Assembly (NCBI GenBank): GCA_918797485.1
Contig: CAKKNE010000002.1
Location: 3,624,501 to 3,688,500 of the forward strand
Length of the DNA stretch: 64,000 bases
From: Pelagomonas calceolata
Taxonomy: Eukaryota; Sar; Pelagophyceae; Pelagomonadales; Pelagomonadaceae
Direction: 5' to 3'
Shown here: positions 20,151 to 62,645 of the stretch, one piece after another
Position numbering within the stretch: position 1 is the stretch's first letter
How the letters are laid out: each line of letters begins with the position of its first letter
The notes under the pieces: generated by a model
What the model saw: only the letters and a program-made list of their open reading frames with translations
Told to the model about the DNA's origin: nothing
Databases searched by the model: none
Program-made: the position numbers and the translations under genes

Positions 20151-23100
20151 ATGAGCTCGCGCGAAGCAACGATCAGGTCGTTTAGGGCGAGATCGGTCAA
20201 GGTTGTGTGGGACGGGGCCGCGCCGCCGTCAGTCGAAGCGCTGCAGGCGGCCTTCGCGCCCTTCGGGGCCATCTCGACGGTCCGCGTGAAGCAGCGCACA
20301 GCGCTGGTGCTCTACCGGGACGCGCGGTCGGTGGCGTCGGCGGTCGATGGCACCCGCGGCCCCTGGATCGCGACCGCGGTCGCCACCGAGAGAGCGGATC
20401 CGCGGCGCGGGTCCCCCAGCGCGCCGTTTGGACAAGCGCCGGCCGCGGAGGCGTTCTCGGGCGCGCCGTTTGGACAAGCGCCGGCCGCGGAGGCGCCGGC
20501 GGGAGCAAGCGAGCCGCCGGCCGCAGAAACGTTCTCGGGCGGCGCGCCGTTTGGACAAGCGCCGGCCGCGGAGACGTTCTCGGGCGCGCCGTTTGGACAA
20601 GCGCCGGCCGCGGAGGCGCCGGCGGGAGCAAGCGAGCCGCCGGCCGCAGAAACGTTCTCGGGCGGCGCGCCGTTTGGACAAGCGCCGGCCGCGGAGACGT
20701 TCTCGGGCGCGCCGTTTGGACAAGCGCCGGCCGCGGAGGCGCCGGCGGGAGCAAGCGAGCCGCCGGCCGCAGAAACGTTCTCGGGCGGCGCGCCGTTTGG
20801 ACAAGCGCCGGCCGCGGCACGTTCGCCGGGCGCGCCGTTTGGACAAGCGCCGGCCGCGGAGGCGCCGGCGGGAGCAAGCGAGCCGCCGGCCGCAGAAACG
20901 TTCTCGGGCGGCGCGCCGTTTGGACAAGCGCCGGCCGCGGAGACGTTCTCGGGCGCGCCGTTTGGACAAGCGCCGGCCGCGGAGGCGCCGGCGGGAGCAA
21001 GCGAGCCGCCGGCCGCAGAAACGTTCTCGGGCGGCGCGCCGTTTGGACAAGCGCCCGGCCGCGGGCACGCCGGGCGCGCCGTTTGGACAAGCGCCGGCGC
21101 GGAGGCGCCGGCGGGAGCAAGCGAGCCGCCGGCCGCATAAAACGTTCTCGGGCGGCGCGCCGTTTGGACAAGCGCCCGGCCGCGGACGCCGGGCGCGCCC
21201 GTTTGGACAAGCGCCCGCCGCGGAGGCGCCGGCGGGAGCAAGCGAGCCGCCGGCCGCAGAAACGTTCTCGGGCGGCGCGCCGTTTGGACAAGCGCCGGCC
21301 GCGGGAGACGTTCTCGGGCGCGCCGTTTGGACAAGCGCCCGGCCGCGGAGGCGCCGGCGGGAGCAAGCGAGCCGCCGGCCGCAGAAACGTTCTCGGGCGG
21401 CGCGCCGTTTGGACAAGCGCCGGCCGCGGCACGTTCTCGGGCGCGCCGTTTGGACAAGCGCCCGGCCGCGGAGGCGCCGGGCGGGAGCAAGCGAGCCGCC
21501 GGCCGCAGAAACGTTCTCGGGCGGCGCGCCGTTTGGACAAGCGCCGGCCGCGGAGACGTTCTCGGCGCGCCGTTTGGACAAGCGCCGGCCGGGCACGCTC
21601 GGGCGCGCCCGTTTGGACAAGCGCCCGGCCGCGGAGGCGCCCGGCGGGAGCAAGCGAGCCGCCGGCCGCAGAAACGTTCTCGGGCGGCGCGCCGTTTGGA
21701 CAAGCGCCGGCCGCGGAGACGTTCTCGGGCGCGCCGTTTGGACAAGCGCCGGCCGCGGAGGCGCCGGCGGGAGCAAGCGAGCCGCCGGCCGCAGAAACGT
21801 TCTCGGGCGGCGCGCCGTTTGGACAAGCGCCCGGCCGCGGAGACGCGTTCTCGGGCGCGCCCGTTTGGACAAGCGCCGGCCGCGGAGGCGCCGGGGGAGC
21901 AAGCGAGCCGCCGGCCGCAGAAACGTTCTCGGGCGGCGCGCCGTTTGGACAAGCGCCGGCCGCGGCGGGGACGTTCTCGGGCGCGCCGTTTGGACAAGCG
22001 CCGGCCGCGGAGGCGCCGGCGGGAGCAAGCGAGCCGCCGGCCGCAGAAACGTTCTCGGGCGGCGCGCCGTTTGGACAAGCGCCCGGCCGCGGAGGCGTTC
22101 GGGCGCGCCCGTTTGGACAAGCGGCCGGCCGCGGAGGCGCCGGCGGGAGCAAGCGAGCCGCCGGCCGCAGAAACGTTCTCGGGCGGCGCGCCGTTTGGAC
22201 AAGCGCCGGCCGCGGAGACGTTCTCGGGCGCGCCGTTTGGACAAGCGCCGGCCGCGGAGGCGCCGGCGGGAGCAAGCGAGCCGCCGGCCGCAGAAACGTT
22301 CTCGGGCGGCGCGCCGTTTGGACAAGCGCCGGCCGCGGAGACGTTCTCGGGCGCGCCGTTTGGACAAGCGCCGGCCGCGGAGGCGCCGGGCGGGAGCAAG
22401 CGAGCCGCCCGGCCGCAGAAACGTTCTCGGGCGGCGCGCCGTTTGGACAAGCGCCGGCCGCGGAGACGTTCTCGGGCGCGCCCGTTTGGACAAGCGCCGG
22501 CCGCGGAGGCGCCGGGCGGGAGCAAGCGAGCCGCCGGCCGCAGAAACGTTCTCGGGCGGCGCGCCCGTTTGGACAAGCGCCCGGCCGCGGAGACGTTCTC
22601 GGGCGCGCCCGTTTGGACAAGCGCCGGCCGCGGAGGCGCCGGCGGGAGCAAGCGAGCCGCCCGGCCGCAGAAACGTTCTCGGGCGGCGCGCCGTTTGGAC
22701 AAGCGCCGGCCGCGGATACGTTTCGGGCGCGCCGTTTGGACAAGCGCCGGCCGCGGAGGCGCCGGGCGGGAGCAAGCGAGCCGCCCGGCCGCAGAAACGT
22801 TCTCGGGCGGCGCGCCGTTTGGACAAGCGCCGGCCGGGCACGCGCCGGGCGCGCCGTTTGGACAAGCGCCCGGCCGCGGAGGCGCCGGCGGGAGCAAGCG
22901 AGCCGCCGGCCGCAGAAACGTTCTCGGGCGGCGCGCCGTTTGGACAAGCGCCGGCCGCGGGCACGTTCCGGGCGCGCCGTTTGGACAAGCGCCCGGCCGC
23001 GGAGGCGCCGGCGGGAGCAAGCGAGCCGCCGGCCGCAGAAACGTTCTCGGGCGGCGCGCCGTTTGGACAAGCGCCGGCCGCGGAGACGTTCTCGGGCGCG

Positions 23101-24884
23101 CCGTTTGGACAAGCGCCGGCCGCGGAGGCGCCGGCGGGAGCAAGCGAGCCGCCGGCCGCAGAAACGTTCTCGGGCGGCGCGCCGTTTGGACAAGCGCCGG
23201 CCGCGGAGGCGCCGGCGGGAGCAAGCGAGCCGCCGGCCGCAGAAACGTTCTCGGGCGGCGCGCCGTTTGGACAAGCGCCGGCCCGCGGCACGCCGGGCGC
23301 GCGTTTGGACAAGCGCCCGGCCGCGGAGGCGCCGGCGGGAGCAAGCGAGCCGCCGGCCGCAGAAACGTTCTCGGGCGGCGCGCCGTTTGGACAAGCGCCG
23401 GCCGCGGGCACGTTCTCGGGGCGCGCCGTTTGGACAAGCGCCCGGCCGCGGAGGCGCCGGCGGGAGCAAGCGAGCCGCCGGCCGCAGAAACGTTCTCGGG
23501 CGGCGCGCCGTTTGGACAAGCGCCGGCCGCGGAGACGTTCTCGGGCGCGCCGTTTGGACAAGCGCCGGCCGCGGAGGCGCCGGCGGGAGCAAGCGAGCCG
23601 CCGGCCGCAGAAACGTTCTCGGGCGGCGCGCCGTTTGGACAAGCGCCGGCCGCGGAGACGTTCTCGGGCGCGCCGTTTGGACAAGCGCCGGCCGCGGAGG
23701 CGCCGGCGGGAGCAAGCGAGCCGCCGGCCGCAGAAACGTTCTCGGGCGGCGCGCCGTTTGGACAAGCGCCGGCCGCGGAGACGTTCTCGGGCGCGCCGTT
23801 TGGACAAGCGCCGGCCGCGGAGGCGCTGGCGGGAGCGGGGGAGCCTCGGCCGCATCGCAGCCCCAGAGCCTCGCCGCGCGCCGCGTGCGTAGCGCTTGGT
23901 TTCGGTGGGCGCTTCGCCCGCGGCGGCGGCGGCGCGGCCCCTGGCGTTTTGCGACTCGGACGATTGTGCGACCTTGGCGGCGAGGAGGTCGTCCTCTTCG
24001 GCGTTGCACGCGCGTCGCCGGCGGCACTCGCGGCTGCGCTCCGCCGCACCGAGGTCCTGGCCACCGCGCGGTGCGGCCCGGGCGGCGACGACGGCGGGGT
24101 CGCCGGGCGCCTCCGCGTCGCGCACGTGGCGCTCCTCTGCGACGCAGGGCAATCCGACGCCGCCCTAAGCCGCTGCGCCGCTACGTGCACCGCCGCAGCG
24201 CCGCGCGGCCCTGCCCGCACGGCGCTCGCCGCTGCTGTCGCCCTCGAGGACCGCGTGCGACGGAGTCGCGACGGCAGCCCCATTCCGCGCGCTGCACTTG
24301 CGGCCGCCGCGGCGCCGTCGTCCTTCGATCAGCTCGGGTCGCGGGCTGGCGGCCGCCTCAACGCGCTGACCGCCGCGGAGGCCGCGCCTGCGCCCGCCCC
24401 CGTCGCGCGACCGCCGCCGCCGGCTGCGCCCGCCGTGTTGTGCCCTGCGCGGACTGACGCCATCGACGCCAAGCCTGGGTGGTTCCGACGCAAGCTTTCC
24501 GCCGTCCTCTACCCAGACGCGACGCGCGTCGACCTCGCCGAAGCGTCTGCACCTGCGGCCTACTACGACAAAGCCTGCGGTCGATGGATCCTTCCTGACA
24601 CCGATGGAAAGGACGGGCACTCAACTGCTGCCCCCCCGCTGCGCGCCCCGCCGCCGTCGGCGTCGATGCGCCCCCCGGGGCTTGCGCCCGCGGGTCAATC
24701 TAGCCCCCCGCTGCCCTCGCCGCGGCGCGCGGCCTCGACGTCTGCCATGGCCGCCGATCCGCTCGCCGCCATGATGGCGCCACCGCCAATGCGCGCCGTG
24801 CCACGTGCCCAACGCGTCGGAGATGCCATGACAATCCGTGCGCCACAATCACAATCGACACCTTCCTTCGCAACCTTTGCATAA
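20151..24884 (+). CDS. RRM-like / PFG-repeat / Sec16-like C-terminus protein, frame disrupted
   Basis: Starts ATG at 20151. Residues about 15-70 form an RRM-like fold (VKVVWDGAAPPSVEALQAAF, then FGAISTVRVKQRTALVLY). A long array of 41-residue units follows (GAPFGQAPAAEAPAGASEPP plus AAETFSG), then a unique region from 23830. There GFGGRF and the C-terminal motif KPGWFRRKLSAVLYPD followed by AYYDKACGRWILPDTD resemble the end of Sec16, the ER exit site scaffold (family: GWF..., then YYD...RWV). The PFG motifs also resemble nucleoporin FG repeats, so a nucleoporin is the main alternative. As given, the frame breaks: a TAA at 21138-21140 and many 1-nt C insertions inside the array shift the frame, yet the start and end are in the same frame. 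Either the assembly has errors in this repeat or the gene is decaying. Extremely GC-rich. Confidence 0.55.
20429..23825 (+). repeat. Tandem array of about 27 units of ~123 bp
   Basis: Each unit contains two copies of CGCCGTTTGGACAAGCGCC, one GCGGGAGCAAGCGAGCCGCC and one GCAGAAACGTTCTCGGGCGG block. Unit length of 123 bp is 41 codons. First and last units are nearly perfect; units from about 21050 to 23450 show scattered CC/CCC and GG/GGG length changes. The unit has no stop in any of the six frames, which is why long frames appear on both strands. Confidence 0.95.
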
Positions 24885-33269: not shown

Positions 33270-33879
33270 GGATTGTCCCCTGAGAGGCAGGATGTCCTTT
33301 GTTTGACTACCCTGATGGTGACCTTGGTATTTGCTTAGTACCCGTATTGACTTATAGCAAGTAGCCAATTCTCAGAACTTGAAAATGCCAGTGAAAATAA
33401 TCAGCCGTGCTTGACAAGACACAAAGGATCGAAAAGATGCTTTGAGAAAATGATGGAACGTGTCGCCTGGAACTCGGACTCGGACTCGGGAGTCTGTGCT
33501 TAGTCCGTCATGATACCATCCAAGTCAATAAGACCATCAACTGAATCATGAACAACCTCTCAGAAACAAATAAAGCAGAACGAGCTAGGGGAGATGGATG
33601 CGATGCGGGATCTACTTCACGCCCCTCGTTTGCATCAAGATCTACCCGCACCCAACATGGGGTCGACGACATATGTCATGCGAGTAATAAACAAATAAAC
33701 AAACTTGAACTAAGGGAAGACCTAAAACAAAGCTTATTAAAAGGAACACGGGCAAGCTCGCTCCTAATTAGTGGCACCGTCACGGTGACTGGCAGGGTAT
33801 AGTTCAATAAGTTAGTAAGCCTTTCCAGCGAAATTCCTCCGCATTAGAAAGAAGGACTCACGGTAGTATAGATGCCTCA

Positions 33880-34170
33880 GGCTCGGGGCCGGCCGGCCGG
33901 ACAGGACTCGGATAGAGGGTCCTTTTCGGAGCACTGGCACTGCCAGTGGCAGTTCTAAGTGTGGCAGTCTTCAAAAGTTCGCCAGTGCCCGGTGGGCCCG
34001 GGCCCAGGCCACTGGCAGTCACTGAGTCACGGTGTGTAAGCTCAGGCTCACGCCGACTCGGAGCCTTCCCACAGCACAGCACTCAGGCTTCAAGTCACGG
34101 TTGGGCGGCCCCGGCCCGGGCGGCGGCTCCGAGTCATGCCAGCCTGGGTGGTCACTGGCCCGGGCACTCA
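33880..34170. repeat. Cluster of short spacer words
   Basis: Within 290 bp there are copies of CTCAGGCT (at least four), ACTGGCA or GCCAGTG (at least six), GACTCGGA or TCCGAGTC (three) and CTTCAAGT/CTTCAAAAG (two), many abutting each other, for example GCACTGGCACTGCCAGTGGC at 33931-33950. Confidence 0.8.
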
Positions 34171-34709
34171 GGCTCAGGCTGACATTGGGGGCGCGGCGGT
34201 TGGGGCTAAGCGTGAGATATTTGACCCCTTCGTCGTGCTCTCCGTCCTCGATTTGTTCTTTCTTCGTAGGTAATGTACCGTAGGTACCGTATTCACTAGA
34301 CCTACTTTATCCAGGAATTCAAGGTATACGCACATATCATAGCAGGACTGCGGTATAGGTGATTTTTCTTTTCTAGGCATTCACTGTAAAACACTGGCAC
34401 TCCCGGGCCGAGTCTACGTCAATAGGCGGAACCTTGTGGGCCCATAACCTAGCAAGAGTATGTCGCAGCATTATTTAAGGTAGCAGGGTCCTAGCTCACC
34501 AGCCAACTTGAAAGGCTGCCAGTGGCCCGGGGCCAGTGGCAACTTGAACCCGGCCCGGGCGGGCCTAACCGTGACTACGAGACTCGGAGTGTTTTATAGC
34601 AAATTGTGTTTACACCGTAGTGTCAATAAATACTCGATGTATAGACTCAAATTTAGAGAGTGGGAGATACATATCCAGGGTAGGAAGGGCTAGTAGGTTT
34701 CTCTCTCTA

Positions 34710-34795
34710 TAGGTAGGTACTTACGGTACCGTACCGTACCGTAGGTAGGTACCGTAGGTACCTACAGGTAGGTCCTACCTACGGTACGGTAGGCG
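34710..34795. repeat. GGTACC/ACGGTA palindromic array
   Basis: A run built from GGTA, TACC and ACGGTACC units in both orientations (for example GGTACCGTACCGTACCGTAG). Almost fully self-complementary, so it could form cruciforms or slipped structures. Confidence 0.75.
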
Positions 34796-34993
34796 TACGA
34801 GTATAAAAATTATATGACGACATCGATTTTTGTTCCTGAAGTGGGATAATATTTACGCCAGGATCCAGCGACGCGCCGTAATTGCCTCAGCTACCACCCC
34901 CAGCGTAATGCCTCTCAGTTCGGATCACCCCGTTTTTTTTCGCATGGCCCGGGTGCACCGCAGTTACCAGTCTTGCTGTGAGACCTGAAATTA

Positions 34994-36789: not shown

Positions 36790-38587
36790 CAACAACACCC
36801 CAAACAAGAAAGCCTCACTCGTTGTCCATCCACCAACGACTCATTATGTAACCTACCCGCGGCCAGTCAGGTAGGAATACTAGCAGCACCATTATCTTGA
36901 GATAGGCGCAGATAAGTCCCGCAAAATTCATGCAGGCACAACACGAGCGCTATGAACAGTTTCCAAGTCCCCTTGTCTTCAATGACAACCACATAATGGT
37001 CCAATTCATTCAATGCTTGCCCCTGCCGATTGTCTTAACTGCACCTGCGGCTTCATTTGCATGTCAAACGCAATTGCTGTAGCGCGAGTCCATAGGAGCG
37101 GGCTTGAGTGCTCTGGCCTCCGCAGTCAGAATGCCGCGCGGTTACTTTGAGCTGGGCCAGGGCATGCAGTCACATGGTGTGTTCTCCGAGCGTAAATGAC
37201 GAGCCCAGTAGGACAAACCCCAGTTGGAGTTCTTGGCAAGTGCGATTGACGGGAAGGTAACCCGCTCTAGATACCTCCACTCTTATATTCGCACACCCAA
37301 ATCGGGACCGCACACCGCGCAACAACAATGGCCAACCAGATGATAAAATAGCTGCCATCAAAGTTGCCAGTGACTTAAACTTAAACTTGAATAACTTATG
37401 CCAGTCACGGGCCCGGGCATAATTTTGAAATAAATTTGTGTGGATTAATACACTGGATTAATCATGATTGAAGTGGACCACCCCAATAAATGTCACGGTA
37501 ACACCGCGACCCCTCCAAGACCCACTGTGTTTTACCTTATTTTTTATTTTTTTTTCAATTTCGCATGCTAACTTGAAGCTGGCAGACTTCAAGTTACTGG
37601 CACAGTGACTACTAGTATTAGTATGGTGATGATGATGATGATGATACTGTTGTTAGGGGACTGTTAGGGGAGACTAGTGGAGGTACCGTCCCCTAGGCCG
37701 GAACTTGAAGTCGGTTAATTCGTTGGAGTAACATTCTTCCTTACCTTCTCTTAGCTCTAATTAGAATGAATTAGCCTGCGACGCTTAAGGCTCCTTGGAG
37801 ACTTCGAAATTTATAGGGGGGTCGGGCGCAATAGTCGACGTTGGCAGGTTTTGGCGCAATGAGCGTACAGCCACACGCCGGCCGAATGGCGGCAAACTTT
37901 TGCTGAGGCGCAGCTTCCGTATGCTAAAATAATGGGTTGCGTGCAAAGTTTGGTGCATGCGGGCAGCCTCGCGCTGAAAAATCAGCTGCGACGCGGTGAT
38001 GGTCCGAGATAAAACCCGCCCGAAAAACAATCTCTCCAATGGACGGGATAAACCGGCCTCGAATGATCCACTAATTATTTCCTATCGTTCCATATCTATA
38101 TAGGGCTGCTAGGGAATATCCTGCTTCCGGCCCTGCTTAGAGGTACCGTGCGTCGCAATGAGTTTGCACCGCAGGAATCTTGACAGAAAGCGTCAAGGTG
38201 GGCCCCACTAGAAGTCCTGGCAGCTAATTCCCGCTGGTTCAAAACTAATCTGGCCCGGGCAGTTTGGTAAATTTGGCGACACTCTCTGAGGATACACTCT
38301 CGGCGCTTTGCGCGCTAAATACGCGGCGGGAGCGCACATTAGGCGCCTGCGCGGCCCGCAGCAAGCTGTACCGGCATGGGGCAGCTGTACCAGCAAATGA
38401 CGGCCCGGGACTGCGTTTATCTTACCGCTGCGCATTCGCACGTGGCTCGCCGGTTGACACGTAGGACGTCATACGCCCATCTCCATGTGGAACGAGCCGT
38501 AGGCCCAAACACATTCTCGGCCGAGATTGTCATCAACTCACCCACGGTCAACATCGCGGCGTCACAAGGTCAGGCATGTTTGTGTAA
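36790..38587. other. Intergenic spacer with dispersed repeat B
   Basis: 1.8 kb between converging genes. Contains ACTTGAAG/ACTGGCA words at 37360-37400 and 37570-37610, a (GAT)n stretch at about 37626-37644, and dispersed repeat B copy 1 at 37688-38129. No gene recognised. Confidence 0.5.
37688..38129 (+). repeat. Dispersed repeat B, copy 1
   Basis: Almost identical to 50562-50930 (same orientation) over long blocks, such as GTCGGTTAATTCGTTGGAGT and GGCTCCTTGGAGACTTCGAA. This copy has a 6-nt ACTTGA insertion near 37702 and about 80 extra bases near 37922-38010. It lacks a GCCTGAG and a 13-nt segment that copy 2 has. No open frame is conserved. Confidence 0.9.
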
Positions 38588-46613: not shown

Positions 46614-46836
46614 CCTGCTGAGACGCTATCGACACTCAAGTTCGCCATGCGCGCCAAGCGCGTGACCAATGTACCGCGCCTCAACGAGGACCTTGACCAG
46701 GCATCACTACTGCGCAAGTATGAGCGAGAGCTTAGACGCCTCAGTGCCAAGCTCGAAGAGCGAAATCGCAATGTAGTCGATCAACGGTGTCTACTCGAGC
46801 TCGAAGAGCGCCGCCGTCGCGCCGAGAAGAACAAGC
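46614..46836 (+). pseudogene. Inverted fragment of the neighbouring kinesin gene
   Basis: Encodes LKFAMRAKRVTNVPRLNEDL and about 45 further residues, nearly identical to the kinesin neck region at about 48215-48000 on the opposite strand. Differences are few (for example RRLSAKLEERN here, RRLRAELEERN in the gene). The copy starts within the end of the motor domain and stops abruptly at 46836, so it is a partial duplication in inverted orientation, 270 bp beyond the 3' end of the parent. It cannot make a kinesin, but transcripts from it would be antisense to the parent mRNA. Confidence 0.85.
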
Positions 46837-47107
46837 ATGGAGGACGCAGGCGCCCACATCTCGTCGCTTGGCGATCTTCGCCCTCCGGCCGTCCCAGGCC
46901 TCACAAGGGCGACAGGAAGAAGTGGAATCAAAAGAGAAAAATAACACCGAGAGACGGTTTTAAGACGTATACATGAGGAACCGCGAGTATTTATTTGACC
47001 AATACCATATTGGACTCGGGAGAGAAATATATGCCGTCCGTAAATTCATTCATTTTTACATCATTACCTCCTAGGATTATTTCGTGATTGTAGGATTCCG
47101 CCTGATC

Positions 47108-49396
47108 TCAAAGATTCCTTTCTGAGGTGGCAAGGCGCCTCCCAAGCTCGCCTTGGCCGGCCTGTTTCAGCGCTTCGACAGACGCACGGATGAGGCGCCG
47201 CAGTGCGCCAAGATCTTTGAGTGCAAAGGCACGTGCAGCACCGGGCGCTACGTTTTGACGGTCGAGATTTGAGGCGACGCTGTCGACCAGGACCGCAATT
47301 TTCTTTTCGAAGATGGTCTGGACAGCATGGCGCTCCTTGTCGCGAAGCTCAAGTAGGGTCAAGAGCTCGGCGACGCGTTTGTCTGCGCTTGTACCACCGG
47401 CCGCAGCACCACCGACCGCAGCGGCCGCGGCAGGAGCACAATCAAGGGGTCGCATTAGCTTTGCATTATCTGCGCGGCGCACAGTGACGTCATGTCGAGC
47501 TGCGTCTGCCTCGTGAAGTGCCGCCCGCGCTCCACCCTCGAGCTCAAGGCGCTGAATTTGGATGCACTGGGTGGTCTTCTCATCAAGCTTGTTTTCGAGC
47601 GCAGCCTGGTTCCGATCATACGCTTCAAGCTCATCCTGGAGTGCCATGATCTGCTCATCGCGCTCATTGAGCCGCTGAGTTAGCGCGATCATGATATCGC
47701 GCTGCTTGAGCAGTAACTGCTTGTAGCGCTCGACCTGAGCCTTCTCGTGCTCAATACGCTCACGCTCACGCTCGAGATCGGCCAGCCGCGCGTCGTACTC
47801 TGCCGCTGTGTGACGTGCAGGCGACACCTTAGCGTCGTCGATGCCGCCTACCCTGCCACCGACCATCCCGTTCCCCCCGACATCAGTCGAGATCATCTGC
47901 GACGTAAGTTTTAAAATACGCTCCTCGAGACGCGTCTTATCCTCCTTTTCGCGCATGAACTCACGCGAGCGTACTTCGAGCGCGCGAATCGCCGCACGCT
48001 TGTCCTCCTCGGCGCGACGGCGGCGCTCTTCGAGCTCGAGTAGACACCGTTGATCGACTACATTGCGATTTCGCTCTTCGAGCTCGGCGCGGAGGCGTCT
48101 AAGCTCTCGCTCATACTTGCGCAGTAGTGATGCCTGGTCAAGGTCCTCGTTGAGGCGCGGTACATTGGTCACGCGCTTGGCGCGCATGGCGAACTTGAGT
48201 GTCGATAGCGTCTCAGCAATCGACTCAGCTGCTGGCGAGATGGTCGCCAACATGGTTGTGCGACAATTGCCGCCAAGTGAGTCCTCCAGGAGCCGTGTGA
48301 GCTTAGAGTCGCGGTAGGGGACGTGCTTGCGTGTAGTACCGCTTGTCTGCCGCGTAGCAAGGGCGGCTATTACATTTCCGAGGGCTGACAATGACGCATT
48401 GATCTTCTTCGATTCTTCGAGTCGCTGGCCAGTAGCGCCTGAGACACCGACACGCTCGGAACCAGCGAGGTCGACAAGATTAAGCTTCCCCACGCGAAAT
48501 GTTTGCTTGACTCGGTTTTCCAGGCGCGCGAGTGCTTCGGCCCGCTTGAGGCCGGCCGATCGCATTTCACGGGCAAAATCGTCTGGCGCCAACTCACGTC
48601 CGTCCTCACCCACATAGACAGTCTCCGAATGCTCGACGATAACGACAAAAACTGCGTGTGACCGCGACGAGAAGTCATTCATCCTCGTGGCGCCAGTTGC
48701 GCGAGATCGCGAAGCGCGGTCCATTAGCGCGTAGACCTCCGAGGGCTGGCGAACAACCCACTCAGAGAGACCGTCGACGTACACGCCGCGCTTGGGATCC
48801 TCACGGATTGCGAGCGCTTCAAGCGGCGATGCTACCGCACTGGTTCCCTCAGGTGCTATGCCGTTGCGTGGGGGCGCCAAAAGATCCGAAACGATCTCCT
48901 GGTAGATCTGGATGCAAGACGCACGCGCGAGGAAGCGCACGTTTTTCTGTGCGTGTCCTGCAACGTGACGGAAGATCTGTTCGACCGACCGTGGGATGAT
49001 GCCACGTGCAACCGGATCACGGGCCTCAGAGCCGTCCATTGTGTAAGTTTTTCCAGTGCCTGTCTGACCATACGCAAACATCGTGGCATTATAGCCCTGA
49101 AGGCAGCTCTCTACAACCGGCTGTGCGGTTGTTTCGTAGACTTCCGCTTGTGTGCTGCCAGCATCGTACGCATCGTCAAACGCGAACGTGTGCACCGCCA
49201 CGCTGCGCTGGCGATTGATTGTCGGCACATCGTTGTCCACGTCGCTAATTGTCACCGTCTGCAGCCGCTTATCCACGCGCGCTACACTCCCCGACGACTC
49301 GTGCGCGAGTAGCGGCCGTACACGGACGACTACCTTGACCGCATCGTCATGCCCCCTGGGGGAGCGCGCCGCCGACGATCGGTCTAACTCATCCAT
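47108..49396 (-). CDS. N-terminal motor kinesin
   Basis: 762 aa, one exon, ATG at 49396. The motor domain occupies about residues 15-415: VKVVVRVRPLL, P-loop AYGQTGTGKTYTMDG, switch I NDFSSRSHAVF, switch II LVDLAGSERVG, and KHVPYRDSKLTRLLEDSLGG. The neck sequence KFAMRAKRVTNVPRLNED follows, then coiled coil to about residue 640, including YKQLLLKQRDIMIALTQRLN and a stretch with DEQIMALQDELEAYDR. A motor at the N-terminus implies plus-end-directed movement along microtubules. The coiled coil resembles a kinesin group common in protists rather than animal kinesin-1; the exact subfamily is not certain. A linker of about 50 residues inside the motor (between switch I and switch II, EHSETVYVGEDGRELAPDD...) is longer than usual. 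GC-rich with no introns. The neck region is duplicated in inverted orientation just downstream. Confidence 0.9.
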   Translation of the reverse strand: MDELDRSSAARSPRGHDDAVKVVVRVRPLLAHESSGSVARVDKRLQTVTISDVDNDVPTINRQRSVAVHTFAFDDAYDAGSTQAEVYETTAQPVVESCLQGYNATMFAYGQTGTGKTYTMDGSEARDPVARGIIPRSVEQIFRHVAGHAQKNVRFLARASCIQIYQEIVSDLLAPPRNGIAPEGTSAVASPLEALAIREDPKRGVYVDGLSEWVVRQPSEVYALMDRASRSRATGATRMNDFSSRSHAVFVVIVEHSETVYVGEDGRELAPDDFAREMRSAGLKRAEALARLENRVKQTFRVGKLNLVDLAGSERVGVSGATGQRLEESKKINASLSALGNVIAALATRQTSGTTRKHVPYRDSKLTRLLEDSLGGNCRTTMLATISPAAESIAETLSTLKFAMRAKRVTNVPRLNEDLDQASLLRKYERELRRLRAELEERNRNVVDQRCLLELEERRRRAEEDKRAAIRALEVRSREFMREKEDKTRLEERILKLTSQMISTDVGGNGMVGGRVGGIDDAKVSPARHTAAEYDARLADLERERERIEHEKAQVERYKQLLLKQRDIMIALTQRLNERDEQIMALQDELEAYDRNQAALENKLDEKTTQCIQIQRLELEGGARAALHEADAARHDVTVRRADNAKLMRPLDCAPAAAAAVGGAAAGGTSADKRVAELLTLLELRDKERHAVQTIFEKKIAVLVDSVASNLDRQNVAPGAARAFALKDLGALRRLIRASVEALKQAGQGELGRRLATSERNL

Positions 49397-51276
49397 TATC
49401 GACTGAATTGGCCCGCCGGCGCCCGCGGCGCCCGGGCGACGACGACGGGTTTTTAGCCCCCACCCCGCACGAAACGCGCGCGCGCGGCCGCGCGGCGAAG
49501 AGTATGGCGGCCTTGTCCGCCCCCAGGGAGCGTCAGCGGAGGCTTAACGCGCCGTATGCAGGGAGCCCCTCGCCACTCCAGCGCTTGGTAGTGTGCCTAC
49601 AGGAGGCGAGTGCACCTGCGGCTCCGTTGCCCTTCATTGCGCCGATTCCCCGCCAACCGACGATTTGGTCACGGAGGCGCCTGTCCACCATGACCCGAGG
49701 GCAAGCCCACGATGTAACGGACTCACTAGACATCGGTCGACGGGGGCTTGAGCCCGAGTGGTCGCGCCGAGGAAGAGCGACGACTCTATATCAACCACGC
49801 CACACGGCCGTGAACATCGAACCATAGTGTACTACGGCCGAGGAACACCAGGCACCGCCTCGATATTGAAATCAGTGACATGGCGTCGAACGCCGGGTCC
49901 TTGGCAGTCCCTTTTTCATTATAGGTAGAATTGATTTGAGCACCTCGCCCGTGCTGCCCGGTGGTCGCGTGCCGAAGTTTGTGTTTCAAATTTGGCGGTT
50001 CTGGTGCTGTGGCCCAGGAGCGCCAATTTAGGCAGCGTTTTTTGCGCGCGGCGCGTGCCGTAGTGTGTATAGAGGCTGCTGGCAGTGTGCGGTGTGTGTG
50101 GAAATTTAGTAACCGTGTATCTGGAAATTTAGTTAGGCCCGCGAAGTTACCGCGTCAGGCGATCTATTCGGCAGCCCATGAGGTACCCCGGCCGCGCGTG
50201 CGCATCCGCCCCACGCCGCGAGTACCCGAAGCCCTAGGTTCCCGGCAAGAAGCGGTTCTGAAATACCTGCTACGTAACCGCGGACTCCCCATCCTGGTCT
50301 GGAAGCGCAAAAAGTGACCGCAGCCTCTTGAAGAGCCCAACTGGGAATTTGAACCCTAATATCAGGGGACCGGACCGGGCCCCCGTAGTCTCCCTTCCTG
50401 ATCACTATGTTTAACTGTTCATTCAGACTAGTGCCTTTTTTCAAATTCTGTTGGCGAGAAGGGGCAAGGGGATATATCCAAACAAACATTTTAACAGCCT
50501 AAGAACGAACGAACGAACAAACAAAAAGAGGCTTAGGAGCTTACCGTGCCAGTGACTACTCCCCCTAGCCGGAAGTCGGTTAATTCGTTGGAGTAACATT
50601 CTTCCTTACCTTCTCTTAGCTCTAATTAGAATGAATTAGCCTGCGACGCTTAAGGCTCCTTGGAGACTTCGAAATTTATAGGGGGGTCGAGCGCAATAGT
50701 CGACGTTGGCAGCCTGAGGTTTTGGCGCAATTGAGCGTACAGCCACGCGGCGCCGACCGAATGGCGGCAAATTTTTGCTGAGGCGCAGGTTCCGTATGAA
50801 ACCCGCCCGAAACCCAATCGCTCCAACGGACGGGATAAATCGGCCTCTAATTCCCCACTAATTATTTCCTATCGTTCCATTATTAACTTCCATATCTATA
50901 TAGGGCTGCTAGGGAATATCCGACTTCCGAGGCTGGCTGCTTATTAAGTAAGTGACTACTAGTAGAATACCTCTGAGTCCGAGTCCGAGTTTCTTCTTCG
51001 GCGCCCATAATAAATACCCCGGGGGGTAGAGGCCGGACTTCGGACAGACTCGGGCCGGCGTGGACTTGATGCGTATCTGCCCGCGTGGGGCCGGCACTAG
51101 AGGCGGGCTGGCAATTAGTTTGCCTCAGTGAAAGTGATAGGAGATCGCTTTGCCTCTGCGAATGCGTGCACCGTGCGTAGGTGCTCGCATGAAAACTAGT
51201 GCGACTTGATTGACGGAACTAAAGTTCTTCTTCTTGCCCGCGCCCGTCGACAGCACCGTTACCCACGAGCCGGAGC
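49397..51276. other. Intergenic spacer with dispersed repeat B
   Basis: 1.9 kb. Contains dispersed repeat B copy 2 (50562-50930), a (GAAC)n stretch at about 50503-50525 and CTGAGTCCGAGTCCGAGT at 50972-50989. No gene or convincing tRNA seen. Confidence 0.5.
50562..50930 (+). repeat. Dispersed repeat B, copy 2
   Basis: Second copy of 37688-38129. Compared with copy 1 it lacks ACTTGA after CCGGA, has an extra GCCTGAG between GTTGGCA and GTTTTGGCGC, lacks an internal segment of about 80 nt and has 13 extra bases before the shared CATATCTATATAGGGCTGCT. Confidence 0.9.
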
Positions 51277-55391: not shown

Positions 55392-57104
55392 TTGAATCCG
55401 TACCTCGGTCTGCTCCGCTCCGCAGCCGTGGCCTGGTTCGTGGCGTCCAAAGCTAGGAGCAACGTAAACCGCAACGTAAACCGCAACTTCGCGAGTGCGG
55501 GCGTCTAACTCGACACGCCGAAAAGGCACGTCGCGCGACGGCGGAAAAAAACAACGCGCGCACGCGCACTGTCCGCGCGGGCCCGAACAGTCCTCTGGCA
55601 GCAGGAGAACGACGTAGTGGCGGCACAAAGCTGCTTAATTTACCTCTTATGCTAGAGCTAAAAAATCAAGGCTTGCAGTGTCTTAGCCTAATGTGGTACT
55701 AGGAGCTTGTATTATTATCTGCGAAATCGTACCCTGGCCTAACGCTAGTAGGATCCTCCCCCCCTTTCTCCTATCTTGTTCGCACTACATTCAAGCCTGT
55801 CTCACTTTGTCCGCGGCGCGCGCGGCACCCGCGGTTCGCGCTGTGACGCCTCTGCTAAACGAATTGCGGCGGCGCGGGCAGGGGTCTGCCTAGTAGAGCC
55901 CTAGCTCTAGGTAGAGAGTCGCTCTGCCTACCCAGCTCGGACGAAGTCGAGCCATAGGACGCTGCAGCCAGGCGGTTGTCTACGCACTCTGGCCGAGCTA
56001 TTTTCGTGGGAACATGATGACGATAGACAAAAAACTTCAAGTTGAAATGTATTACTAGTAAACACCAAAACTGCACTAATGGTGCTCCCGCCAGACGTCG
56101 TTCGCCAGCTCGCCCGATTGCTCCCAGGCCGGCGCGCCGTCCTTAGTAAGCTCTTAGTGGAGCTCCAGGGGACAACAGGTAAACCCGGCCCGGGAATATT
56201 TACCCAGCGGCGGCGTGGCCGCAGGGGAGCTGTTTCGCAAAATCGGGAACCGACTCCGAGTCAGCAGTGGCGTTCTCGGGAGTAAGCGTAAACGGTCGTC
56301 ACGGTTTCCAAGTCGCCCGTGAGTGGCCGTGGCACGCGTCGGCGGCGTGCGGCATGCGTCACACACTATTTTGGTACAAGCGAAACCGCAGCGTGGCACA
56401 TGCCCGCCTGCACATAGGTGCGGAAGCGATGCTACGAGCCGACAGAGTCGCCGAGGTCACCGGAAACGGCCCGCGCATGGCTAAACTCCTGCCGCGCTTA
56501 TGTCGCGGCGCGCGGCGCTCGGAGCCAAGTCATCTCTGGTGGTCGCTCATGGTGGAGAAACCGTTTACACGGGGCGTATAGAGGTGCTCGTAAAGTCGCA
56601 GGTGGTGGCGTTTGCGTACACGTGGACGCGTTTTTCACTCGTACCTGCCAGCGAAAGTAGCAGAGCTCGGTGCGCGACGGCGCGGCGCCTCGCCGGAATT
56701 GCGGCGGTTAGCCGAGTTTGGCACGGAAAGGCCGGGGTTATCGGCGCTATTTTGCGCGCGCACACAGGGGCAATCGGTCGAGAATCGAGAAGGCCAAGGA
56801 CCATCCCTGGATACTCTGAGATGGATTAGAGGTTCACAAGACGCCCGTGTGTGCGTGTGTGTCTCTCTCCCGCGACGCAGCGCAGACGTCCGGCGGCTAC
56901 GGCTGGCCCGCGTCAACGACGCTTTGAAAAAAAAAAAAACGCAACCACCCTCGACGACGCGCGGCCCCCGCGGTACATCACCACCCATCGAGCACGGGGT
57001 ATCTCTCCTAGGCTTCGAAACGCACCGGCCACTCATATATAAGTAGAGGAATCTTACTAAGGGAGGCGGCGATAGCGACGCTTTCGGGCTCGACGCGACC
57101 GACG
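55392..57104. other. Intergenic spacer with diverged repeat
   Basis: 1.7 kb (part could be 5' UTR of TRAPPC8). Contains dispersed repeat C copy 2 (56310-56740), GACTCCGAGTCAGC at 56250 and an A13 run at 56926-56938. No complete gene recognised. Confidence 0.45.
56310..56740 (+). repeat. Dispersed repeat C, copy 2
   Basis: Diverged relative of 46000-46440 in the same orientation; identity looks moderate with many small indels. Confidence 0.5.
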
Positions 57105-57344
57105 CTAGTATTCCCAGTTCCCAATACCCCTCCAGAAGCGCTTCAACGCTGTGAACTTGGCTCTGTCCCGGTCGTTGCCAACGATAAAATTGGTCATAAT
57201 ATAGAAAATTGCTTGCATGGCCGCCAAGCCGCCGCGGTCGTGAATCTCCTGGCCGATGTCTCTGATTCTTGATAATGTCCGGATGACGTGCTCCTTCCCG
57301 TCTGGAGACATTTGGTCCGGCTTCGAGGCCAGAAACAGATCCAT
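57105..57344 (-). CDS. Unrecognised 79-codon exon or fragment
   Basis: An open frame read leftward ending GIGNWEY-stop, with EHVIRTLSRIRDIGQEIHDR and LAAMQAIFYIMTNFIVGN. The amino acid mix is protein-like and codon use differs from the surrounding spacer. I do not recognise the family. It lies 60 bp downstream of a Helitron Rep relic on the same strand. It could be a captured host gene piece, a separate exon, or the 3' exon of a gene whose 5' part was replaced by the Helitron. Confidence 0.35.
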   Translation of the reverse strand: MDLFLASKPDQMSPDGKEHVIRTLSRIRDIGQEIHDRGGLAAMQAIFYIMTNFIVGNDRDRAKFTALKRFWRGIGNWEY

Positions 57345-57402
57345 TTCGCCTACCTGATCATCTGAAGTACCTAAATGAAGTACCTAAAATGGACACAATT
57401 GC

Positions 57403-57696
57403 TTACTCGCGGATCTCGTCCCTCACCTCGCCCGCCGAATGCGCGACAACGGTTAACGGTGGCCCGATGAGAGCCGGTGGCCCGTGCTCGCGGAGCAGGG
57501 CCAGCGCGTCTTGGTAGCTGCGACCGAACTGGCGCGCCGAACGGGTAAAGTTCGGGCCCAGGACCACGCGCCGCCCGACGTTCGCCGCATCCCCGCCCGC
57601 GTACGCGTCCATCATACCGCCGTAGAGTTCGGCGCGAATCGTCGCCTGGTCAGCTCGGAGCTCGTCGGTCTCGACCGTGCGCTCGACCTCGCCCAT
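57403..57696 (-). mobile_element. Helitron Rep/helicase-like fragment
   Basis: The leftward frame encodes RADQATIRAELYGGMMDAYA, then VGRRVVLGPNFTRSARQFGR and SYQDALALLREHGPPALIG. This matches the start of the Helitron helicase-like (Rep) domain (family pattern: R.e.y.g..da...gd....GrrviLp.sf.Gs.R.....yqDAmai.r..G.PdlfiT). It ends before the catalytic FiTfT, HxH and YxxxY motifs, so the copy is a dead fragment. The 5' and 3' Helitron termini (TC...CTRR with hairpin) were not found. Confidence 0.6.
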
Positions 57697-59096
57697 GCCG
57701 CCGCGCGCGGCCGTGCTGTTTGGTCAGTGCACTGGAACAGTTTTCGCAGGAGCACTCGGCACACGGGCCGCGTGCGACGCACGCGAAGCGGATGAGCTTC
57801 GAGCGCTGTGAAGGCGCGAGTCGCCGCCCGCGACGCGGAGAAACGCCGCGCGGGCGCGTGTGACCGCTGGAGCAAAAAAAACGGGTTTGGGGAGCGGGCC
57901 CGCGGCGCACGGCCTCTCAAGGAGTCGCTTCCGAGGCTGAATCTAACATTATTTCGCCGAGCGTGAGATCGGGGGGGAGGGGGAGGCTAACGCCTCCTCC
58001 CCCCCGAACCCCCCCCACCCCCTCCTGTGTTGCTGGAGCCGAAGTGCTCCGTGGAGCCGACGTCTAGGGCGGCGTCCCGTGTACGGCGTGGAATACGCTC
58101 CCCGAATTTTTATTTTCCGAGCCGACGCGCGCCCGGCGGGCGCCGGACCGGGGACCCATCCAAAAAAACAGGCGGCGGCACGCTCGCGACGCCGACCCGA
58201 ACGCGCCCGAAGCGCGAGGGCGCTCGCGGCGGACGCGGCGCGGAAAAAGTTGACTCGCCGTCGGCCGCGGCCACGCCGCCGCCCGGGCCCGGCAGGGCGC
58301 GCACGGCCGAGCTGGCCACGGCGAGGCGCCCGCGACCGATGCCGACTCCGGCCCGACGCGATCGCACCGCGGCCGGGCCGGTTTCGGCGGTTGACGCGCG
58401 GACCGTCGTCGGGGCCGCCCGACGCGCGGCCGGCGCGGCAGAGCGACGCGGCGCCGCAGCTGCGGCGCGCGGCCTCCAGAGGCGCGGCCCGGCGCGGCCG
58501 AGCCGCGGGCGCGCTTGGGCGGCCGTCACGCGGCGCGTCGCGTGTGTTCGCAGCGCTCGCAGCGCTCACGGGCCCAAAACGCTGGCTCTGCGCGCGCGCG
58601 GCGCCCGCGCTCGCGGAAAGAAGCGTCGCGCAGGGGTTCTAGGTCGCCGACGGCGGCCTCGACGCGAAAACTGCGTCCGTAAAGGGGGCGCTGTCCCCCT
58701 TTTGGGGGCCATTCCGCAAGCTCACGGACTGGTCAGTAGTGATGATAAAAGAAATAGATTAATCACTAAAGAAGAAATAGATAAATCGCTAGAAATCGAG
58801 GATGGGGGTCCGGTCTCCGGTCCACATCATAGCGCTTGGCGAAGTGCTTGGCGCCCTGGCTTTCGTCCGGGCCGGCCCCGCCGCGCCCCAGGCTTATGAA
58901 GTATCCCAGGAACTTGAAAGAAAGCCTGAGCGACCACTGGCAACCATCCATCAGATACGACTTCAAGCTCCTACCAGGCAAAATATTATTATTATTACAA
59001 AGGTATCAAATTCTAGAGAAGTTAAGCGGTCAGGTCACTCGGACGCTATAGACGACAGTTGTAGCGTATGTACAATGTCATGTGAATCTATGTGAC
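57697..59096. other. GC-rich spacer upstream of AHI1
   Basis: 1.4 kb. Extremely GC-rich between about 57700 and 58640, giving overlapping open frames on both strands with no protein-like composition. A polypurine/polypyrimidine tract of G8-A-G5 and its imperfect inverse lies at 57970-58025. Part at 58820-58890 resembles 26010-26065. Nothing coding recognised. Confidence 0.45.
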
Positions 59097-61526
59097 ATGT
59101 CGCAATCTGCCACTCAGCAGTCTGGAGGAGGGGTGCCTTCGCGCACCGCAGCTGCAAAATTGTCTAGGCCTATTGGATGGACTTGCGTTTACCGTAAATT
59201 AACTCGTGGATGGCCTCGCGAAAGTAGAAAAGAGTTGCGCGACCCGCCCAAAATACTTGAGCTAGATAGGGTCGCCAATGAACAAGTGAAGCGTGTACGT
59301 GACATGACACATTGCCAAGATGTTGTTTGTGTTTCAGTATTGGGGACTGGCATTTTTTGTGAGGAACCAAACATTATTCATCCGATTGTTCGCATTCACA
59401 CAATTGACGCTACCACTGGGCACTACTTAAAAGAAATAAAAGAAATAAAAAACCCTGGACGCACTGGCCATCACGGACGAGCATCATCATTGCAGATTAG
59501 CTCTCCTGGTGGTGATATTGGGGTGGATGGAATCAATATCCCCATTTTAAGCGTTACTCCAGTTTCCACGGCTCCTTGCCACCTTAAGGGCCTGAGTGTT
59601 GCGCCCACATGGAAAGAGACCAGTATTGTTGGCATTCCCTATAGGTGTCTTCTGGATCCCAATGTGATCATACTTTTTGAAATTGTTGATGTCAATCATA
59701 TTCAATCCTCCTCGCAACATCATGACCAACGTGGAGATGGAGTTTGCGGTCTAGCTTGGGCGTATCTACGGCCGGTGGGGATAAATGGCGATGTTTTAAT
59801 TAATACTTCCAAACCTGCTATGAATACGAGCACTCTGGAAAGCACAACAAACAAAAGCGGCAAAGATGTTAAGCAGCAATCTATTCAACTTCAGTTGTAC
59901 AAATACCAGGCACTCTCGTCGCTAGCGAGCTATCAAGCGCATAGGAGGGGCATCTTCTCTCCGCCAGCACCGGCTACTTCAAAAGTTCCTGCTGTCTACT
60001 TACAGTACCTACAAAAGCATTGGATTAAACACACCACCACACTTCTTGTTCAGATCAATCCCGTCCCACAACATGAGGGCAGAGTAGTGGCTTTTCATGA
60101 AAAAGGGTTCTTATGTCGCTCAAGCATATCTTCAAAGGGGGGGGCTTGCATGACAAGTGACGCCAGAATGCCTGCTGCGCGTCTGCTGAGAGGCCTCCGC
60201 ACGAGACGCCTCGAAACAGAGTGCTGCGTCCTGCCTGATTGCTTCCTTTGTCGGATCAACCCAGGCGCTCGTGGCGCGACGACAATACAGTTTTCTCCAC
60301 AGGGGCGACTGCTCGCCGTTGCCGCTGTAGAATTGCTTTGTCATCCTATTCGACTTTATGACGTGACTGGTATGGACGAGGGCATGCTGTCGCCTGGTGT
60401 GTCCTCTGCAGCTTCTGCTGCTACTGTATATGGCCTACAAGTGGATCAAAGCCATGAGGGTGCTCTTCTTGTTGCTGACCTTGATGGGCATCATGGCATG
60501 ATTTATGATTTGCGTTTCACCGACAACGAACGTTATCTCCTCTCTGCATCTGCGGACGCTCTGGTGAAAGTATGGGACCTCGGAGCACTTGCAGCCGTCT
60601 CAGCTTCCGTCCGTCCTAAATATGCACCTCGGATGCTGTGTATCTTCCATGAACCTTCTGCTCAATTTTTCTATGCTGCTATCTTTTTTATGAAGAACAA
60701 CTCCGCTACTCGTGCGCTACCGCTCTATACTCAATCCAAGGAGGATGACGGCAAGAACCATCAGAGAATATGTCCGCACGTTCTTACTGGTGCATTTAAT
60801 GGAGCAGTTGCGCATTGGGATCCCCGGACAAGTCAATGCCAAGGCCTTCTTGGTAATAGAATAGCACACAAAGGGCGAGTGCATTGTCTTGAGAGTGATC
60901 GACGATCTGGTCGAGTCTTCAGTGCTGATTCAAACGGCATCATATTTGTGTGGCGTTGTGAAAGAGACGGTGATTATCCCTCTGACTTCACCATTATTCG
61001 GAAGATAGAGCATCGTGATTTTAGAAACAAGCCCATTGTGTCAATGATGATTCGCCCCAGGAGGCGCCGAGTTCAACTTCTTGTCCAGGCTCAAGCATCA
61101 ACACTCAAGCTCGTAGATGTCACTACCTCCCAACCTGTTGCCCATTTCAAAGGCAACCTTGTGAGAGCAGGAGTGATAAGAGCTAAGTTCAGTCCAGATG
61201 GCACCTATGTGCTGGCTGGGTCTGAGGATGGAAAGGTTTATGCTTGGGATACTGTATCAGCTTCTCCAGTTTCATTTTTAGATGGTAAGTTCGGCTACAG
61301 TGCACCTCTTTGTGACCTATCGTTTCATCCAAAGCAGCATTTAGTGGCATTAACCTGTTTTGGCGGTGATCATCCAGTACTCGTATATTGTACTAATCGT
61401 CCAGACACGCCAAAATTGCTCGATGGTCAAGCTGGTTGCGACGCACGTGCTACAAAGGATCAGCCTAGCGAGATCAAAGCCCGCCGCAAGGCGTTGTCAT
61501 ATCAACTAACAACTGGAAGTAATTAG
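59097..61526 (+). CDS. AHI1: AHI1/jouberin homologue (transition-zone WD40 protein)
   Basis: 809 aa, single exon; ATG at 59097 (preceding in-frame codons lack ATG), TAG at 61526. The N-terminal third holds the C2-like domain typical of AHI1: VRIHTIDATTGHYLKEIK, LDPNVIILFEIVDV, and GLAWAYLRPVGINGDVLINT. WD40 repeats follow: HHGMIYDLRFTDNERYLLSA with SADALVKVWD, then VLTGAFNGAVAHWDPR and VFSADSNGIIFVWR. The last repeats RAKFSPDGTYVLAGSEDGKV and LCDLSFHPKQHLVALTCFGG match the best conserved end of AHI1. The SH3 domain of vertebrate AHI1 is absent, as in protists. AHI1 sits at the ciliary transition zone with MKS/NPHP proteins and is lost in Joubert syndrome. The long uninterrupted frame contrasts with spliced genes nearby. 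Confidence 0.85.
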   Translation: MSQSATQQSGGGVPSRTAAAKLSRPIGWTCVYRKLTRGWPRESRKELRDPPKILELDRVANEQVKRVRDMTHCQDVVCVSVLGTGIFCEEPNIIHPIVRIHTIDATTGHYLKEIKEIKNPGRTGHHGRASSLQISSPGGDIGVDGINIPILSVTPVSTAPCHLKGLSVAPTWKETSIVGIPYRCLLDPNVIILFEIVDVNHIQSSSQHHDQRGDGVCGLAWAYLRPVGINGDVLINTSKPAMNTSTLESTTNKSGKDVKQQSIQLQLYKYQALSSLASYQAHRRGIFSPPAPATSKVPAVYLQYLQKHWIKHTTTLLVQINPVPQHEGRVVAFHEKGFLCRSSISSKGGACMTSDARMPAARLLRGLRTRRLETECCVLPDCFLCRINPGARGATTIQFSPQGRLLAVAAVELLCHPIRLYDVTGMDEGMLSPGVSSAASAATVYGLQVDQSHEGALLVADLDGHHGMIYDLRFTDNERYLLSASADALVKVWDLGALAAVSASVRPKYAPRMLCIFHEPSAQFFYAAIFFMKNNSATRALPLYTQSKEDDGKNHQRICPHVLTGAFNGAVAHWDPRTSQCQGLLGNRIAHKGRVHCLESDRRSGRVFSADSNGIIFVWRCERDGDYPSDFTIIRKIEHRDFRNKPIVSMMIRPRRRRVQLLVQAQASTLKLVDVTTSQPVAHFKGNLVRAGVIRAKFSPDGTYVLAGSEDGKVYAWDTVSASPVSFLDGKFGYSAPLCDLSFHPKQHLVALTCFGGDHPVLVYCTNRPDTPKLLDGQAGCDARATKDQPSEIKARRKALSYQLTTGSN

Positions 61527-61808: not shown

Positions 61809-62645
61809 ATAGCCCGAACGTCGCAACTTACTACGAAAGGGCCTTAGGGGGTGCCTCACATTCTGGCGGAGTGTGGGGCCCTGAAAATGCGAGGGGCCGG
61901 AAGGGCCCCCACGCGAACGTCGCGCCAGTCTAGGTTGGCACTTACCATATCCCGTCGGCGGGATATGTTATACGGCACTTACCCGAGGGGTTATTAACCC
62001 CAATCGTGGCCCGGGGTCAGTAACCCGGGTAATTACCCGTTAGTACGGGTTATTAACCCCGCCGGGATCTTATAGTACTAGACTTTCTTATAGAGGGGGA
62101 GGGGGAGGGGGCCTCACGGGCCACTGGCGCGGGCCTGGGCCGCGCCGGGCCACATGACTTGGTACTTGCCTTGGCGCACCTGTACGTACCCAAAAGCTCA
62201 ACGGGCTGCTTGCGCCCATCCGCTCGCCCGGAGGGGTCTTTCGCTAATCTCACTAAACGGGTTTAGTCGAAAACCTGTCGGGTTATTGAGCGGGTTATTG
62301 TCCCGGATCCCCTCCGAGGGGTAATTATAGGTTAATAACGGGTAATTAACAGGTAAGTGCCAACCTAGGCGCCAGTGGCGTTTCGCGTCGTGTTTGCGCA
62401 TCCTCAGGCTACCGACGCCACCGTGACGGGTACCAAGGGGGACTTCGAGGGGGAAATCACCAGCATAGAAGCGAGTTTTGATTTTCACCCCTGAAAACCC
62501 GCGAGTTGAGCTAAATACCCTCACGTTAGGTCATTTTGGGCACCTCACCCCATCTCGAGGGGGGCCCCTCCGTGGCAAGCTAGTGTCGCCGTGTGCTTAG
62601 GATGCCCCTGGGACCAAACGGGCCAAGTTGCGACGTTCGGGCTAT
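61809..62645. mobile_element. 837-bp non-coding element with terminal inverted repeats
   Basis: Perfect 21-bp terminal inverted repeats: 61809-61829 begins ATAGCCCGAACGTCGC, and 62625-62645 is its reverse complement. A second inner pair is also inverted: GTCTAGGTTGGCACTTACC at 61928-61946 and GGTAAGTGCCAACCTAGGC at 62352-62370. The middle is rich in GGTTATTAAC/GGGTAATTA words. There is no transposase frame, so it is non-autonomous. A clear target site duplication was not seen (flanks TTAA and TCAA are close). Confidence 0.8.

Follow-up and report, generated by a model that had tools for sequence, protein, structure and literature searches.

Short words in the spacers of Pelagomonas calceolata are rebuilt from the bases into which they are inserted and may be transposon excision footprints

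Why do the same few short words recur in the spacer DNA of Pelagomonas calceolata, and why do two copies of one repeat differ by just such words? The window, a 64,000-nucleotide stretch (C2:3624501-3688500) of a genome of 32.45 Mb in 8 contigs, has a GC content close to the value of the published low-GC chromosome regions. Strain RCC100 was assembled into six nuclear contigs, a plastid of 90 kb and a mitochondrion of 39 kb, with one low-GC region per chromosome (~52% vs 63% overall) that was proposed to be centromeric (PMC9481584). The first-pass annotation had described two copies of a repeat in the window, repeat B, as nearly identical, and had suggested that the insertions between them are the recurring words themselves, spread by copying of a template. 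Our alignments confirm the insertions but lead to a different origin: each word is rebuilt from the two bases in which it lands and is not spread as a copy.

Copy B1 (37690..38139, + strand) is full-length, at ~450 bp, and is flanked by the direct repeat GAGGTACCGT (37680-37689 and 38140-38149). From its sequence and the alignment of ~40 repeat B loci, it carries one word insertion, which forms AACTTGAA at 37702..37709 (X = AA, C, X' = TT, G, X = AA); the inserted 6 nt, AACTTG, in the context CCGG-AACTTG-AAGTCGG, are private to B1 among the aligned copies. Copy B2 (50561..50950, + strand), flanked by AGTGACTACT (50551-50560 and 50951-50960), has an internal 89-bp deletion and contains the word AGCCTGAG at 50711..50718 (X = AG, C, X' = CT, G, X = AG), whose insert AGCCTG, in the context TTGGC-AGCCTG-AGGTTTT, is shared only with the copy L009 (C2:3.48 Mb). 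Since both words are missing from the consensus of the remaining copies, both are insertions. The insertion in B2 had been rightly noticed, but it measures 6 nt and not 7, and the near identity of the copies was overstated: they match at 93% over 227 bp, up to the 89-bp deletion in B2, and at 82% over the right part. Likewise, the two 6-nt insertions are words as proposed, but further indels of 13 nt and 3 nt are not. With target duplications of ~8-10 bp and ends like TAGGG (window 37680-38149 and 50551-50960; L015, L019, L020 and L021), repeat B looks like a hAT-type nonautonomous element, and the majority of its copies are clustered, on each contig.

Most six-nucleotide insertions in the ~40 repeat B loci and in 33 copies of an unrelated repeat (family 2), with the B indel list limited to events with well-aligned flanks, follow a simple rule, by which X-C-X'-G is inserted before X, where X stands for two bases of the target and X' for the reverse complement of X. 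Insertion lengths in repeat B peak at exactly 6 nt (21 events), and the deletions, two of which are of 6 nt, show no such peak. Exact fits to the rule make up 16 of the 21 six-nucleotide insertions in B and 5 of 6 in family 2 (21/27 in total), compared with 0.2% of spacer 6-mers placed at random and 1.5% of tandem duplications, and the remaining 15 middle-base pairs together fit only 1 of the 21 insertions in B. The small indels across B copies are thus not random. In the aligned loci the words come about through insertions a few bases long rather than through drift or common descent, in support of the earlier view. Both 8-nt insertions in B are a 3-bp version, AAT-C-ATT-G|AAT, so that X measures 2 bp in 21 events and 3 bp in these two. 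Among other repeats compared pairwise, 4 of 8 insertions obey the rule.

X among the exact events is AA, AG, AT, TT, GG, CC, CA, TA or GT, and X' follows X-C in all exact fits. Examples are AA-C-TT-G|AA (L009, L010, L014, L024, L035), AG-C-CT-G|AG (L009, B2), GG-C-CC-G|GG (L012), AT-C-AT-G|AT (L009, L017, L036), CA-C-TG-G|CA (L017), TA-C-TA-G|TA (L024) and TT-C-AA-G|TT (L027, L036). The rule permits only sixteen 8-mers, and most of the recurring words that we examined come from this set. The direction of change can be read directly: words are missing from most copies, and no word deletion was seen in the aligned sets. In L070, the element's own target duplication reads AGTAGGAC on the left and AG-CCTG-AG-TAGGAC on the right; as the two duplications were identical at birth and only one holds the word, the word entered after the element had landed. 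Consensus position 73 of repeat B was hit twice with a different length of X (AA in L035, AAT in L017), and 5 of the 7 family-2 sites lie within 25 bp (p ~0.001), which together indicate that targets are not uniform, although the flanking bases of the aligned events yielded no consensus.

Family 2, represented by the window copy and 32 further copies, served as an independent test set. It is a short element with more than 30 near-full copies, clustered like those of repeat B; the window copy (61976..62368, + strand) has the ends CTAGGTTG...CAACCTAG and ~8-bp target duplications, and some of the family's target duplications are words themselves (ACCGTGAC in L080). Part of the window copy (62005..62343, + strand) aligns to L055 7417-7780, where four words are nested. 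In this copy (L055/L090), the 30-base GACTCGGACTCGGCCCGGGAGCCTGAGGGG, which includes a 24-nt insertion, peels via exactly four events to the family consensus GAGGGG. Similarly, three events unwind the 18-nt insertion in L027 and two the 12-nt insertion in L016, ending at the consensus or one substitution away from it. The longer insertions are therefore nested repeats of the same event. Nesting is dense in the spacer at 33400..34199, where 24 peelable words account for 144 nt, or 18% of the DNA, while mirror grammars give 0 to 5. Nearby (34700-34800) lie arrays of GGTACCGTA/GGTAGG that resemble the word rule minus its G (ACCGT units) and that the rule leaves unexplained.

The rule is also evident in raw sequence. 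The window holds 163 rule strings where 22 are expected, with other middle-base choices near background; pooled low-GC material holds 422 against 23, with other choices reaching at most ~4 times expectation. Other grammars that we tried (no, other or two middle bases; X of 1, 4 or 5) were near background or little enriched. Words occur at 3.90/kb outside long open reading frames (ORFs) and at 0.65/kb inside them, and low-GC pieces from other chromosomes (n = 4) are enriched 8- to 15-fold. Gene-dense arm pieces show no enrichment above a general excess of such palindromic strings, and in plastid and mitochondrial pieces the rule is not enriched. Genome-wide, TACTAGTA occurs 643 times and its mirror TAGTACTA 290 times, ATCATGAT 507 times against 341 for its mirror, and AACTTGAA 1536 times against 988; on C1, AACTTGAA sites thicken sharply at 2.69-2.97 Mb. 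AGCCTGAG shows no excess (1614 vs 1717 for its mirror GAGTCCGA), which speaks against an origin as footprints; the mirror GAGTCCGA itself occurs within (TCCGAG)n word arrays. Relative to the consensus, the 17 best copies of repeat B have accumulated 328 substitutions and ~16 word events, roughly one event per 20 substitutions, and family 2 shows ~10 events and 653 substitutions. All event data come from a single assembly, which was polished with Illumina reads (PMC9481584); given this polishing and the strictness of the rule, sequencing error is an improbable source of the words.

Several other features of the material were recorded. At 20150-24450 of the window lies a tandem coding repeat of 74-77% GC, made up of FG-like units (GAPFGQAPAAEAPAGASEPPAAETFSG); several reading frames of both strands are open across it, and the N terminus resembles an RNA-recognition domain. 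A kinesin gene (ORF 47108-49396, - strand) contains a 224-bp piece (47995-48218) that recurs inverted and 97% identical just beyond the ORF (46616-46839). In 40 kb of chromosome arm DNA, a conserved motif of ~26 bp, GCTAGCGG(CC)TGTAAGACACTAGCAA, is found ~4 times (L050 2216 and 8706, L051 2386, L052 2110) and may be a promoter element. L055 213-1429 is an imperfect inverted repeat of 1.2 kb with arms of >200 bp and direct repeats GACAGTAAGAGATTTTAGCTAAAAATAGC at its flanks. The chromosome ends that are duplicated at >99% identity (PMC9481584) are mostly coding.

How could two target bases dictate an insertion of this form? When the target edge is followed by a single additional base and then by its own reverse complement, this is the mark of a hairpin end opened past its tip. 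We therefore favor, at a probability of about 0.58, the hypothesis that the words are footprints, with P-nucleotides, left by the excision of a hairpin-forming cut-and-paste DNA transposon with C...G ends. In this scenario, an element with the ends 5'-C...G-3' would land anywhere and duplicate 2 bp, sometimes 3, which become X. At its exit, the transposase would nick each end of the element a single base in from the boundary. The flank's 3' end, which consists of X and the terminal C, would then join the opposite strand precisely where element and flank meet, so that each flank becomes a hairpin whose tip is an unpaired C. A host nuclease might then open both hairpins about two bases beyond the tip, so that the left end would carry the 3' overhang C-X' and the right end the 3' overhang C-X. 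X' and X, complementary by virtue of the target duplication, would anneal, and gap filling would yield X-C-X'-G-X. The net gain would be 6 bp at any target, the same spot could be hit again, and thousands of scars alongside few elements would be expected from a small number of busy, ever-moving copies. A central C that never varies fits a nick placed a single base within an element bounded by C...G, and if the two overhangs paired by one base only, the expected product would be TTCAAAG, which L014 carries as an insertion. Weighing against the footprint hypothesis are the 6 of 27 six-nucleotide insertions that are not exact fits.

Transposon scars are known to arise by similar chemistry. Ac/Ds footprints contain P-nucleotide palindromes centered on a single base that arise from hairpin opening; as proposed here, the odd-centered palindromes come from near-tip opening of hairpinned flanks, joining is aided by microhomology, and the footprint stays at the empty site (PMC5873905). 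In P. calceolata, P-nucleotides of the type that hairpin opening leaves are present, with a hairpin as their presumed source. However, Ac/Ds duplications are of 8 bp, compared to 2 (3) bp here, and their tip base is the variable complement of the flanking base, whereas ours is always C (or G); neither the 8-bp duplication nor the flank-complementary center of the hAT group is found around the words. Furthermore, Ac/Ds footprints are heterogeneous, and the near uniformity of ours counts against the footprint hypothesis. The short duplications, 2 and sometimes 3 bp, together with the proposed C...G ends point to a CACTA-like element. CACTA elements start with CACTA, end with TAGTG and make 3-bp duplications (PMC4158355). 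The CACTA/En-Spm (CMC) group shares with the proposed element cut-and-paste movement, C...G ends (here predicted from the scar) and duplications of 2 to 3 bp (PMC4158355), a size that we do find around the scars, but no element or transposase of the group was found here. The literature that we searched holds nothing on whether CACTA/En-Spm footprints follow X-C-X'-G-X.

Other systems are less similar. Tc1/mariner and Stowaway elements leave a 2-bp duplication and a few terminal bases at the empty site (PMC4561436), but they use TA only and leave fixed bases, whereas the exact events here involve nine different X dinucleotides, with the reverse complement in the middle. Introner elements of pelagophytes, members of the same algal class, show DNA transposon-like activity on a genome scale (PMC9860276; PMC9481584); the example from Aureococcus combines 8-bp duplications with an intron-sized element, in contrast to our inserts, which are 6 nt long and not mobile intron-sized sequences with target duplications and terminal inverted repeats. 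In rice genomes, recent DNA-transposon polymorphism was surveyed genome-wide, and the elements themselves are present there (PMC4423477), whereas here we find scar-like words only. We found no precedent in the literature searched for the uniformity, the fixed C and G, the exact unit or the share of spacer DNA.

A search for the parental element gave no candidate that we could accept. At none of the repeat B or family-2 sites did we see an intact element that has C...G ends and a 2-bp duplication, a scan of ~105 kb of low-GC and 40 kb of arm DNA gave none either, and no CACTA...TAGTG-ended element appeared in the ~145 kb covered by terminal-repeat searches. Candidates from the search for terminal inverted repeats with C...G ends and 2- to 3-bp duplications, such as that at window 56411-61211 (CACATAGGTGC ends, CTG duplication), end inside a WD40-type ORF and were taken as chance. 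Pfam searches returned one hAT domain and no En/Spm, Plavaka, MULE, Harbinger or piggyBac domain, although the En/Spm, Plavaka and piggyBac searches also matched no control and are weak negatives; the same holds for the CMC-type DDE transposase (PF02992 and PF18759), for which neither genome nor controls gave a match. The sole hAT hit is a dimerization domain in a 721-aa open frame (C4:4499982-4500185). Viral contigs scanned for repeat cores gave no match. The words are also not remnants of repeat B or family 2: the target duplications of both measure ~8 bp, and words are found within as well as between copies of families unrelated to each other.

This absence of an element could be explained by a transposon with few copies, but an element-free process predicts it as well. 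In the latter, which we consider tentative and clearly less probable, no transposon was ever present: a nuclease or domesticated transposase would make 2-bp-staggered breaks, whose ends, hairpin-capped or extended with a 3' C by a polymerase that prefers C, would be opened and joined via 2-bp complementarity. It is possible on these terms, though we hold it with the same reserve, that a dedicated mutational process builds spacer in fixed 6-bp steps, with the target setting the word that is inserted, recurring at the same spots and contributing an appreciable share of new spacer. The ~70 repeat copies with ~35 events and no parental element, and the single intact hAT-like frame in the genome, favor such a process, and recurrence at the same sites (position 73 and the family-2 cluster) suggests a cleavage preference; together with the uniformity of the product, recurrence leaves room for this explanation. 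The fixed C and G, however, are hard to explain without an element end, since terminal additions are usually variable, and they favor an element. Moreover, we know of no repair path in which ordinary breaks are closed as hairpins with C at the tip.

Heterogeneous classical nonhomologous end joining after random breaks, with P-nucleotides and fillers, would account for the reverse complements of the break edge, but it is improbable and disfavored by the length distribution: the length hardly departs from 6 nt and the middle bases are constant (C and G), whereas joining at random would give variable lengths and fillers along with deletions. Template copying, in which existing words are copied or ligated elsewhere, is consistent with words that recur and are inserted, but we regard it as very unlikely and reject it because the word depends on the target: the two target bases dictate it in every exact fit, randomly placed spacer 6-mers, themselves drawn from word-rich DNA, obey the rule in only 0.2% of trials, nearly all possible X dinucleotides are used and the flanks lack a consensus. 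Hairpin and P-nucleotide repair of a 2-bp-staggered break fits better. Least credible is replication slippage or microsatellite growth combined with shared ancestry, since, even though some words form tandem (TCCGAG)n arrays and tandem duplications are common small insertions, the inserts do not copy adjacent sequence but hold a reverse complement and two fixed bases absent at the target, only 1.5% of tandem duplications obey the rule, and single words dominate (122 separate clusters of 147).

Pelagomonas calceolata is among the most numerous eukaryotes of the ocean. The rule can be read from sequence, as each insertion gives its target, size and nesting order, and the history of a spacer can thus be unwound event by event. 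At ~20 substitutions per event in repeat B, these insertions are a major source of change in the spacers of this genome. If they stem from a transposon, as we favor, it would be a very mobile one, known from its scars only; if not, they would represent a new way for DNA to grow.
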